A program made the translations under genes and the position numbers. Below the pieces are notes generated by a model that was not told where the DNA came from, did not search any database, and saw nothing but the letters and a program-made list of their open reading frames with translations. Below are positions 54,440 to 64,000 of a stretch of DNA of 64,000 nucleotides, in pieces; positions within the stretch are counted from its first letter, which is position 1, and each line of letters starts with the position of its first letter. The DNA is from Nocardioides cavernae (GTDB lineage: Bacteria; Actinomycetota; Actinomycetes; Propionibacteriales; Nocardioidaceae): the NCBI RefSeq assembly GCF_013410035.1, contig NZ_JACCBW010000002.1:682001-746000 (forward strand), read 5' to 3'.

Positions 54440-54946
54440 ATGAGCCGACTCCGCACCACCCGCCTGCTCCCCGCCGCTGCGGCCGTCCTCCTCCTCGCCC
54501 TCGCCGGCTGCGGCGGACAGGACGACACCGCCGACACCGCGAGCGACACCAGCAGCGCCGACACCTCGTCCTCCGACGACTCCGCCGGGAGCACGCCCGA
54601 CGAGACCCTCGCCCTCACCGCTGACGGCTCCGTCGCCGGCAAGTGCGCCATGCCGTCCGCCGATACCCTCGCGACCTTCGACACCGCGTTCGAGGGCACC
54701 GTCACCTCCGTGGACGCCGGCACCGTCACCCTGTCCGTCGACGAGTGGTACGCCGGCGACGAGGCCGCCACGGTGACCGTCGAGGCGCCGAGCAAGGAGC
54801 TCGAGGACCTCCTGCTGGCGGTCGACTTCCAGGAGGGTCGCACCTACCTCGTCAGCGCCACGGACGACCGGGTGACCCTGTGCGGCTTCACCGCCGAGAC
54901 GTCGCCCGAGCTCCAGGCGATGTACGTCGAGGCCTTCGCGCAGTGA
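54440..54946 (+). CDS. Predicted lipoprotein
   Basis: A 168-residue exported lipoprotein with the lipobox LAGC (signal peptide LLPAAAAVLLLALAGC) and an Asp/Ser/Thr-rich linker (DDTADTASDTSSADTSSSDD) before a beta-rich domain of unknown function (FDTAFEGTVTSVDAGTVTLSVDEWY, then AATVTVEAP and RTYLVSATDDRVTLCGFTAE). The ATG at 54440 is chosen because AAAGGG lies nine bases upstream; the ATG at 54431 is too close to that site. Its stop overlaps the nucleotidyltransferase start (GTGA), an unexpected tie between a lipoprotein and a molybdenum-cofactor gene. Confidence 0.75.
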   Translation: MSRLRTTRLLPAAAAVLLLALAGCGGQDDTADTASDTSSADTSSSDDSAGSTPDETLALTADGSVAGKCAMPSADTLATFDTAFEGTVTSVDAGTVTLSVDEWYAGDEAATVTVEAPSKELEDLLLAVDFQEGRTYLVSATDDRVTLCGFTAETSPELQAMYVEAFAQ

Positions 54947-55494
54947 CGTCGGTCGCCGGGCTGCTCCTCGCGGCAGGGTCGGGGGAGCGGTTCGGCGGCC
55001 CGAAGGGCCTGGCCCGCGACGCGGACGGCACGTCGTGGCTGCTCCGCTCGGTGCAGGCGCTGCGCCCGTGCGCCGAGGTCGTCGTCGTGGTCGGCGCGGA
55101 GGCCGAGCGGGTCGCCGCGCTCCTGCCGATGTCGGTCGCCCGGGTCCGCGCGGACGACTGGGCCGAGGGGATGGGTGCTTCGCTGCGCGCCGGCCTCGAG
55201 GCGCTGCGCACGACCACCCACGGCGCCGCGCTCGTCTCGCTCGTCGACCTGCCCGACGTCGACGGCGCGGTGGTCGCCCGCCTGGTCGACGCGGCGACCG
55301 GCCCGGCCGTCCTGGTGCGTGCGGCGTACGACGGCGTCCCCGGGCACCCGGTGCTGATCGGGCGCGACCACTGGGCGGGCGTGGTCGCGACGGCCACGGG
55401 CGACCGAGGCGCCCGCGACTACCTGGCGGCGCACGAGGTGGGTCTCGTCGAGTGCGGCGACCTCGCCACGGGTGTCGACGTCGACCGCCGCTGA
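54943..55494 (+). CDS. MobA/MocA-like nucleotidyltransferase (molybdenum cofactor)
   Basis: A 183-residue GT-A-fold NTP transferase. The N-terminus has VAGLLLAAGSGERFGGPKGLAR, the CTP/GTP phosphate loop and lysine of MobA/MocA proteins, with VSLVDLPDVDGAVVARLVD as the central metal site and GVPGHPVLIGRDHW as the substrate loop. In this group MocA adds CMP to molybdopterin for the Mo-hydroxylase family, to which the CoxL-type enzyme downstream belongs. Gene order with CoxD, CoxE and XdhC supports such a role (inference). It overlaps the lipoprotein stop. Confidence 0.85.
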   Translation: MTSVAGLLLAAGSGERFGGPKGLARDADGTSWLLRSVQALRPCAEVVVVVGAEAERVAALLPMSVARVRADDWAEGMGASLRAGLEALRTTTHGAALVSLVDLPDVDGAVVARLVDAATGPAVLVRAAYDGVPGHPVLIGRDHWAGVVATATGDRGARDYLAAHEVGLVECGDLATGVDVDRR

Positions 55495-55538
55495 CGTCAG
55501 GTCACGGCGCCCCAACGTCCAGCCAACGTGCCGGGTCG

Positions 55539-55544
55539 TAGCCT
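55539..55544 (+). promoter_or_regulatory. -10 box of the CoxD gene (leaderless)
   Basis: TAGCCT, six bases, then the ATG at 55551; no ribosome-binding site. Confidence 0.5.
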
Positions 55545-55550
55545 GACGCC

Positions 55551-62123: not shown

Positions 62124-62136
62124 GCCGGACCACCGA

Positions 62137-62169
62137 GCCGGTCGCGGGCCTTCGGGTCCCGCGGCCGGC
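62137..62169 (+). terminator. Terminator with TTCG tetraloop after the ScyD-like gene
   Basis: GCCGGTCGCGGGCC, loop TTCG, GG-T-CCCGCGGCCGGC: a 14-base stem with one G-T pair and one bulged T, 14 bases after the stop. It separates the gene from coxS. Confidence 0.8.
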
Positions 62170-62291
62170 TTCGTGGTCTCGATCGGGACGGCCGAGCCGG
62201 CGGGCTGCCCCCAACCTCTCGCCAACCAGCCCGACCTAGCCTCACCAGTGGCGTGACCCACCTCACACCCACGACACACTGGAGCGGCCAG

Positions 62292-62774
62292 ATGACGAAG
62301 ATCGAACTCACCGTCGACGGAGCTGCGGTCTCCGACGACGTCGAGCCCCGGATGCTGCTGGTGCAGTACCTCCGCGAGAAGCTCGGCAAGACCGGGACCG
62401 TGATCGGGTGCGACACCTCCAACTGCGGGGCGTGCACCGTGCACCTCGACGGCACGAGCGTGAAGTCGTGCAACGTCCTCGCCGTGCAGGCCAACGGCCG
62501 CACCGTCACCACGATCGAGGGTCTCGCCGACACCGCCGAGGGCGACCTGCACCCCGTCCAGGAGGCGTTCCGGGAGTGCCACGGCCTCCAGTGCGGCTTC
62601 TGCACGCCGGGGATGATCATGCAGGCCGTCGACCTGCTCGCCGAGAACCCGACGCCCACCGAGGAGGAGGTGCGGCTCGGCATGGAGGGCAACCTCTGCC
62701 GCTGCACCGGCTACCACAACATCGTCAAGAGCGTCCTCCAGGCGTCCGGGCAGACCGAGGGGGCACAGGCATGA
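62292..62774 (+). CDS. CoxS-type [2Fe-2S] small subunit of a molybdenum hydroxylase
   Basis: A 160-residue iron-sulfur subunit with two [2Fe-2S] clusters. The plant-ferredoxin cluster has [15 protein letters not shown] (C-X4-C-X2-C) and a later cysteine in SVKSCNVL. The helical second cluster has [10 protein letters not shown] and [10 protein letters not shown] (C-X2-C...C-X-C). It passes electrons from the Mo site to the FAD subunit. The usual medium subunit gene (coxM) is not seen and may lie past the window edge. Its stop overlaps the CoxL start (ATGA). ATG 62292 is chosen because homology starts there. Confidence 0.94.
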
Positions 62775-64000
62775 CCGCCACCCAGGACCGCCCGGCCGCC
62801 GAGATCGGCAAGGACCGCCGCCGCAAGGAGGACCAGCGGCTGATCACGGGCCGCACCCGCTGGACCGACAACATGACCCTGCCGGGCATGCTGCACCTGG
62901 CGATGGTGCGCAGCCCGTTCGCCCACGCCTCGATCACCTCGATCGACGTCGACGCCGCCAAGGCGTCCGCCAACGTCGTCGCCGTCCTCACGGGCAAGGA
63001 CTTCGGCGACGAGCTCGGCGTCTGCATCAACGCCTGGCCCATCACGCCCGACCAGAAGACGCCCGCCCACTCGCCGATGCCTGCCGACCGGGTCGCGTTC
63101 GCGGGCGAGGTCGTCGCCGTCGTGGTCGCCCGCAGCGCAGCGGCGGCCCGGGACGCAGCCGAGCTCGTCGACGTGGAGTACGACGAGCTGCCTGCCGTCG
63201 TCGGCATCAAGAAGGCCCTCGAGGACTCGGTGCTCGCGCACCCCGACCTCGGCACCAACAAGTCCGCGCTCTGGATCTTCGACTCGAGCGAGGCCGGCAC
63301 CGGAGGTGACGTGGAGGGCGCGATCGAGGAGGCGCGCGCCAACGGCATCGTCATCGAGCGCGAGTACCGCCAGCAGCGCCTCATCCCCGCGTTCATGGAG
63401 CCGCGCAGCGTCGTGGTCGACCCGACCGGCGAGCAGATCACCATGTGGTCCGCCACCCAGATCCCGCACATCCTCCGCTTCGCCCTGGCCGCCACCACCG
63501 GCGTACCCGAGAGCAAGATCCGGGTCATCGCCCCTGACGTCGGTGGTGGCTTCGGCGGCAAGCTGCAGACCACGCCCGAGGAGTGGATCGCCTGGGCCGT
63601 CGCCCGACGTCTCTCCAAGCCGGTGAAGTACACCGAGACCCGCAGCGAGAGCCTGATGGCGGCCCACCACGGCCGCGACCAGGTGCAGACCCTGACCCTG
63701 GCCGCGGACAAGGACGGCAAGGTCACCGGCTTCAAGGTGCACCTCGACGCCGACCTCGGCGCCTACATCGCGATCGTCGGCGGCGGCGTGCCCGTCCTCG
63801 GCGCCTTCATGTTCAACGCCATCTACAAGTTCCCGTCCTATCGCTTCGAGTGCCAGACCGTCCTCACCAACACGACCTTCACCGACGCCTACCGCGGCGC
63901 CGGCCGGCCCGAGGCGACCTACGCCATCGAGCGGATGATGGACGAGCTGGCCGCCGAGGTCGGGGTCGACCCGCTGGAGATCCGCGAGCGCAACTGGATC
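62771..64000 (+). CDS. CoxL-type molybdopterin large subunit, form II (partial, continues beyond window)
   Basis: The first 410 codons of an aerobic CO-dehydrogenase-type large subunit (full length near 790-800). Recognised are [64 protein letters not shown], the Mo-cofactor motif [14 protein letters not shown] (GGGFGXK), and near residue 373 the loop [10 protein letters not shown]. In true (form I) CO dehydrogenases that loop reads AYXCSFR with the copper-binding cysteine; here it is AYRGAGR, the form II pattern. Form II enzymes have mostly unknown or doubtful CO activity. It follows coxS in a coxS-coxL order. Confidence 0.92.

Follow-up and report, generated by a model that had tools for sequence, protein, structure and literature searches.

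The question raised by this locus is what a molybdenum (Mo) hydroxylase oxidises when it belongs to the branch of carbon monoxide (CO) dehydrogenase and lacks the copper-binding cysteine, and whether the two separated halves of its gene cluster work together. The locus lies in Nocardioides cavernae, in a window of 64,000 nucleotides (bases 682001-746000 of contig C2; the genome of 4.30 Mb is divided among 11 contigs and has a listed completeness of 100%). Maturation genes (mocA-like, coxD, coxE and xdhC; 54943-58673) stand there roughly 3.6 kb ahead of coxS, which starts at 62292, and the following coxL is cut by the end of the window. The contig was extended past this end to recover the whole cluster, and coordinates are given as window-equivalents. 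From the promoter comparisons given below, we conclude that one shared promoter element, overlooked in the initial annotation, ties the two halves together. Taken as a whole, the system is best explained as a copper-free form II Mo hydroxylase whose halves are switched by the regulator GafR and whose substrate is a short-chain aldehyde, an explanation that we hold tentatively and consider slightly less than evenly probable. The gene set, the form II class, the presence of the element at only two promoters of the genome and its co-occurrence with gafR can all be read from the sequence.

The complete coxL (62771..65233, forward strand as for all features of the cluster; cut by the window at 64000) encodes the molybdopterin subunit of 820 amino acids. 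The loop AYRGAGR, noted initially near residue 373 in place of the AYXCSFR of CO dehydrogenases, begins exactly there (residues 373-379; 63887..63907), and the catalytic-glutamate motif GVGEAG is found at residue 748. In an alignment with the CO dehydrogenases 8uem, 1ffu and 1n5w, Gly376 occupies the column of the copper-binding cysteine (Cys388 of 1n5w), and the active-site loop is two residues shorter than that of form I. The full-length protein has no copper cysteine. Directly after coxL, beyond the window, follow coxM (65230-66075) and coxG (66080-66781), so that the downstream half has the order coxS-L-M-G and not the coxM-coxS-coxL order of form I. Among the 60 rows of a tree, those nine that carry the cysteine motif of form I made up one clade (support 100), and the 48 form II rows including the window CoxL stood beside it (support 84, not starred). 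The joint group of both forms (support 98, starred) stood apart from the enzymes for quinoline (QorL) and hydroxypseudooxynicotine (HPOD) and from the second Mo-hydroxylase of the same genome. This tree was computed with a quick method and midpoint root, carries long-branch warnings, and omits loci L108 and L110 (copies of loci already included), L161 and L163 (no usable open reading frame, ORF) and L165 (a 10-base stretch). Judged by its motif, its gene order and its place beside form I, the window enzyme is an ordinary enzyme of form II, a known kind within the CO-dehydrogenase branch, in agreement with the class first proposed. Its nearest named relatives are from Nocardioides (N. flavus, 96%). 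Both MoCoBD_1 genes of the genome carry YRGAGR, and therefore no form I enzyme was found in it.

The likeness to form I enzymes extends to the protein family, the subunits and CoxG, for which the solved structure 8uds_D gives a match at E 9e-39. As read from the sequence, the C-terminus of CoxG combines a linker rich in proline with a basic, hydrophobic helix. Both 8uem and 8uds come from M. smegmatis. Form I CO dehydrogenases share the maturation set of the window cluster; CoxD, CoxE and XdhC have roles in sulfuration and copper insertion. The differences are the absent copper cysteine, the shorter loop and the gene order. With other form II CoxSLM systems, the window cluster has in common the AYRGAGR loop, the coxSLM order, the partners CoxD, CoxE, XdhC, MocA and CoxG and the position beside form I, whereas it differs from them in having a GAF-SARP regulator and in having a separate promoter, with the same element, for coxD-E-xdhC.

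That element is a direct repeat with a period of 11 bp, followed by a -10-like box. Upstream of coxS it reads CCAACC-N5-CCAACC (62211..62227) with TAGCCT (62237..62242) 9 nt past the repeat; upstream of coxD it reads CCAACG-N5-CCAACG (55512..55528) with TAGCCT (55539..55544) 10 nt past the repeat and 6 nt ahead of the ATG, a distance so short that the coxD mRNA is likely leaderless. Genome-wide, there are exactly two copies of the repeat with TAGNNT 9-12 nt behind it, one at coxD and one at coxS, and the backward control gave 0 matches. The same distribution was found in 80 loci taken from named records, almost exclusively of Nocardioides and not all independent (L056 and L057 are one strain): each of the 109 copies of CCAAC-N6-CCAAC in 1,562,174 bases lay no more than 200 bp ahead of coxS (61) or coxD (48), with 0 elsewhere. 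Shuffled coxS upstreams (n=76) contained on average 0.03 matches and at most 1. The longer form CCAACC-N5-CCAACC was present with at most one mismatch in 77/77 coxS upstreams and with at most two mismatches in 51 of 54 coxD upstreams, the window included in both; the exact coxS element is absent from 16 loci, and all 77 match once one mismatch is allowed. A TA-N3-T box whose third base is not T follows 9-10 nt past the repeat at 76/77 coxS and 49/51 coxD sites. The repeat is absent from all 21 loci examined from the phylum outside the family. A palindrome, GTGA-N6-TCAC (62253..62266 in the window), which resembles CRP/GlxR sites, lies within 110 bp upstream of coxS in 54/76 loci, against approximately 0.007 expected per 110 bp, and at no coxD site.

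The element is accompanied by gafR (59727..60950), the candidate activator of both halves. In 127 genomes of the order, coxL was found in 46 and a gafR orthologue (E < 1e-150) in 23 of these 46. The repeat with CCTA was found in 20 of the 23 coxL genomes with gafR and in one of the 23 without it, where it does not share a contig with coxL (Fisher p 1e-8, without correction for relatedness). It lay 532-620 bp ahead of coxL in 19 of the 20 gafR genomes; in the remaining one, G301, coxL is on another contig. Among the 80 loci, gafR is present in 68, and some of the remaining stretches are too short to reveal it. Such recurrence indicates that gafR is a regular cluster member and not a bystander.

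The predicted fold of GafR agrees with a regulator that would bind direct repeats. The Pfam matches of GafR are weak and both below cut-off (GAF, 22.3 bits; winged helix Trans_reg_C, 20.9 of 26.2), and a search of its C-terminal sequence against the PDB gave nothing useful (CpxR at E 0.89). A structure model built from 30 orthologues was good from residue 221 on (blocks with a predicted local distance difference test score, pLDDT, of 84-97) and poor in the N-terminal half (blocks with pLDDT 25-59). Residues 223-407 matched AfsR 8k60 with Z 15.7 (root mean square deviation 4.3, 185 aligned residues), followed by 8hvr (Z 15.5) and EmbR (Z 14.0), and by DNA-binding domains of response regulators from Z 9.6; Foldseek found 8hvr at E 8.5e-7. 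As modelled, GafR thus carries an AfsR-type SARP domain, that is, a winged helix with the fold of the bacterial activation domain. According to one report, SARPs bind direct repeats 11 bp apart and 8 bp from the -10 box (PMC10936776). The repeats described here have the 11-bp spacing and a -10-like box 9-10 nt past the hexamer, or 8-9 nt past a heptamer. With AfsR/SARP activators (8k60, 8hvr) and EmbR, GafR would share the fold of both domains and the 11-bp direct repeats by the -10 box, but its sensor is an N-terminal GAF domain and its target is a redox enzyme instead of antibiotic genes. Foldseek matches of the N-terminal half to DhaR and other GAF proteins were weak, and the DhaR model scored 66 of 551 bits.

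A link to aldehydes comes from the paralogues of GafR, which occur in many genomes at 35-39% identity (34 matches). Twelve of the 34 loci (L173-L184) were examined, and 11 of these 12 regulators entered the GafR tree (that of L173 was left out). In 9 of the 12, the paralogue adjoins, or is one ORF away from, an aldehyde dehydrogenase of a single cluster (50-92% identical to that of L174); eight of these nine enzymes pass the ExaC NCBIfam cut-off and the ninth fails it (524 of 900 bits). DUF779-cluster genes were found in five of the loci and dihydroxyacetone (DHA) kinase genes in two. The sequence CAAC-N7-CAAC-N(9-12)-TANNNT stands directly before the aldehyde dehydrogenase gene in 9/9 cases (in L180, 81 bp ahead of the conserved start, the exaC start having been called too early) and only once elsewhere in 120,012 bases, directly after the regulator gene of L183, where no exaC ORF was called; shuffles gave 0.08 matches and the reversed sequence 0. 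GTGA-N6-TCAC also occurs in 6 of the 9 loci with an aldehyde dehydrogenase. ExaC belongs to the Pfam family Aldedh and is unrelated to CoxL, but the two systems share paralogous regulators, a promoter geometry of CAAC repeats and the CRP-like palindrome (6/9). GAF-SARP-like regulators with CAAC direct repeats before exaC were seen in several families of the order. The proposal that GafR arose by duplication of the ExaC regulator was not retained, as the tree shows separate clades and cannot root the origin.

Among the 42 genomes of the window's family, 19 carry the paralogue, and exactly these 19 carry exaC. Twenty genomes have coxL only, 14 exaC only, five both and three neither (Fisher p 1e-4, uncorrected for kinship); within the window's genus, the corresponding numbers are 17, 3, 2 and 1 (p 0.02). 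No exaC was found in the window genome at the threshold used. Form II coxL and exaC thus tend to exclude each other in this family. The substrate had initially been called open and a new reaction possible; the former is already stated in print for form II enzymes, and in place of the latter we tentatively read ordinary aldehyde oxidation from the kinship of the regulators and from where ExaC occurs.

From these observations we propose the following mechanism. MocA, CoxD, CoxE and XdhC would make and sulfurate the cofactor, with which CoxLSM would oxidise its substrate by hydroxylation at Mo. Electrons would pass from the Fe-S clusters to flavin adenine dinucleotide and, via CoxG, to menaquinone at the membrane. 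A quinone role of CoxG is described in one source (PMC13240472), and its coupling to the enzyme considered here is our extension. GafR may sense a small signal derived from an alcohol or aldehyde, would bind the CCAAC direct repeats at the coxD and coxS promoters, and would thereby activate coxD-coxE-xdhC and coxSLMG jointly. The substrate would be a short-chain aldehyde such as acetaldehyde, oxidised to the acid, and in Nocardioidaceae CoxLSM would do the work of the aldehyde dehydrogenase ExaC. The most specific version, in which a copperless form II enzyme on a GAF-SARP two-promoter regulon is a quinone-linked Mo acetaldehyde dehydrogenase that has replaced ExaC in Nocardioidaceae, is possible but on balance unlikely.

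Several observations weigh against this proposal, in which the aldehyde substrate is predicted from genomic context. Pfam shows no activation domain in GafR, both of whose recognised domains are below cut-off, and GafR forms a distinct, long-branched clade apart from the ExaC-linked regulators, so its ligand may differ from theirs. The two paralogues linked to DHA kinase (L176 and L182) lack the CAAC element. In the window's family, coxL and exaC occur together in five genomes, and gafR is lacking in two of the 20 coxL-only genomes (G379 and G382). In another family, f72, all 20 coxL genomes also carry exaC, so that the two genes coexist elsewhere, coxL there being without a gafR orthologue. 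The exclusion also stems from few independent events, as 11 of the 14 exaC-only genomes come from a single genus, g2. The element itself is also found in 8/81 genomes without coxL, and its exact form is missing in 3 of the 23 genomes with gafR. The glyceraldehyde dehydrogenase models NF041018-20 are the best NCBIfam matches of all three subunits (682.7/790, 278.9/350 and 229/290 bits), yet each score is under its cut-off, and a non-orthologous paralogue in the genome also reaches 627 bits to the large-subunit model; these matches add little, and glyceraldehyde was not accepted as the substrate on their account.

Other substrates have to be weighed against a short-chain aldehyde. The enzyme may instead hydroxylate an N-heterocycle or another aromatic compound, as the quinoline and pseudooxynicotine enzymes do, with GafR sensing that compound. 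The Mo-hydroxylase superfamily is chemically broad, and, the CO dehydrogenases apart, the nearest relatives with solved structures are QorL and HPOD, but both fall outside the joint form I and form II group; heterocycle operons usually include downstream enzymes, whereas outside the operon no catabolic or transport gene recurs across most of the loci examined. We regard this alternative as possible though rather improbable. A genuine CO dehydrogenase active without copper, possibly when CO is high, would agree with reports of CO oxidation by strains where the only gene found was of form II (PMC12582533, PMC7248562) and with the CO-dehydrogenase activity cited, though not tied to the gene, for Aeropyrum pernix with its putative form II enzyme (PMC7248562). 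The missing copper-binding cysteine and the lack of the form I loop, which is two residues longer, argue against it, as do other papers which state that CO is not, or is not shown as, a form II substrate; such activity seems very unlikely here. Slightly less credible still is an enzyme resembling purine or xanthine dehydrogenase. It would belong to the same superfamily, and the XdhA model (NF043082) matches at 421.4 bits, but this is far under the cut-off of 780, and the other Mo-hydroxylase of the genome is a better candidate by its PucR-type regulator and permease-like gene. A purine substrate is accordingly not supported.

The regulator can be questioned independently of the substrate, since the CCAAC repeat could be the site of another protein, with gafR merely travelling with the cluster. 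Binding of GafR to the repeat is a prediction, gafR is on a different contig from coxL in G355 and G301, and L047, L067 and L068 keep the element or its one-mismatch form although gafR was not found within 9.5 kb upstream of coxS. On the other side, genomes without gafR have no element near coxL, the same geometry recurs at the genes beside GafR paralogues, and GafR has the predicted SARP fold. We judge another regulator improbable and retain GafR as the candidate activator of a putatively aldehyde-oxidising form II enzyme.

The order of genes first described, with the maturation genes separated from coxS by an exonuclease, a GAF regulator and a ScyD-like protein, was confirmed. The upstream half consists of the mocA-like nucleotidyltransferase gene of the molybdenum cofactor kind (54943..55494; NTP_transf_3 104.8 bits; 84.9 bits to the MocA model and 91.6 bits to the nicotine-blue-oxidoreductase model, each below its cut-off), the coxD-type AAA+ ATPase gene (55551..56429; AAA_5 47.0 bits; MadB-family model 282 bits, below the cut-off of 475), coxE with a VWA domain (56426..57547; VWA_CoxE 186.1 bits) and the xdhC/coxI maturation factor gene (57540..58673), the sole XdhC_CoxI gene found in the genome. 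Between these and coxS ([2Fe-2S] subunit, 62292..62774; Fer2_2 116.4 bits) lie, besides gafR, genes for a secreted exo/endonuclease/phosphatase-type protein (58739..59641; named from sequence alone) and a secreted ScyD/ScyE-family protein (61065..62123; NF033206 232.4 bits, above the cut-off of 80). Directly upstream of the cluster, a long collagen-like Gly-X-Y repeat protein is encoded at 52091-53629.

The split is real, but it is a habit of the genus. In 58 of the 80 loci, xdhC, gafR and coxS lie on one strand; both junctions are shorter than 400 bp in 13 of these 58 and at least one is opened in 45, the xdhC-gafR junction exceeding this length in 36 and the gafR-coxS junction in 26. The genes inserted between xdhC and coxS show no relation to one another and include an exo/endonuclease-type gene (15 of the 80 loci), an alpha/beta-hydrolase-like gene (14), ScyD (7) and many rarer ones. 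Since various unrelated genes open the junctions, the particular intervening genes, gafR excepted, mean little, and the exo/endonuclease-type gene, a lineage-specific insert, and the inserted ScyD/ScyE gene probably stand outside the system. Both junctions act as insertion points, and one family of HNH/DUF222-like ORFs was seen in seven loci. Outside the family, the cluster is unbroken and without gafR in G085 (mocA-D-E-xdhC-S-L-M-G) and G062 (D-E-xdhC-S-L-M-G); 15 of the other 20 phylum loci have the order S-L-M-D-E-xdhC, and the rest are without D, E and xdhC in the stretch examined.

Neighbouring genes were rejected as a clue to the substrate: neither the 45 largest ORF clusters of the 80 loci nor the clusters present in at least 3 of the 21 phylum loci contained a gene for catabolism or transport that was common to most loci. 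Names ending in -like or -type in this and the next paragraph, like those of the non-ScyD inserts, were read from the sequence. The one gene that was widespread in the phylum set is moaA-like and lies near form II coxSLM in 12/21 loci (L116, L118-L122, L125-L128, L130 and L132). An alcohol-dehydrogenase-like gene was seen about 5 kb past coxL in 12 of the 80 loci, each closely related to the window (L006-L010, L012-L014, L016, L018, L022 and L023), with a MerR-like gene ahead of it in eight, and an aldo/keto-reductase-like gene 2-9 kb past coxL in nine others. Neither was seen in the window genome's own stretch (L003), and neither was counted as evidence. On a plasmid of Rubrobacter indicoceani (L137, 51% identity), a form II-like large subunit is encoded beside 5-oxoprolinase-type, carboxylase and amidase genes. 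The near-identical L133 and L134 share their neighbours, which in L133 are nadA/nadC-like.

The second Mo-hydroxylase of the genome (L004, G000:C2:1190000-1203000; coxL 6301-8712) has the order coxM-S-L-G, with genes for a PucR-type regulator and a nucleobase-permease-like protein nearby. It scores 1513 bits to the aerobic CO dehydrogenase model NF040766 (cut-off 950), yet has YRGAGR and no copper cysteine; NF040766 is perhaps a model that misnames such enzymes. With one XdhC_CoxI gene for two Mo-hydroxylases, the maturation half of the window cluster probably serves both.

The activity or substrate of form II enzymes is called unresolved in four publications (PMC6794299, PMC13240472, PMC13203968, PMC7248562), while a species description of 2025 still assigns CO oxidation to such an enzyme (PMC12582533); the papers disagree on what these enzymes do. 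Form II coxL genes can be caught in surveys of CO oxidisers, according to one of them (PMC13203968). New in the present work are the GAF-SARP element common to both halves and the complementary occurrence of the enzyme and ExaC, the enzyme by itself being of a known kind. Literature searches found no paper on either, which is not proof of absence. The two-promoter regulon, an activator that can be named and the partner enzyme ExaC make the form II question experimentally testable. If the proposal is true, the long-orphan form II group would gain a physiological substrate, and, if it is confirmed, tallies of CO oxidisers in which form II genes are included would have to be corrected.

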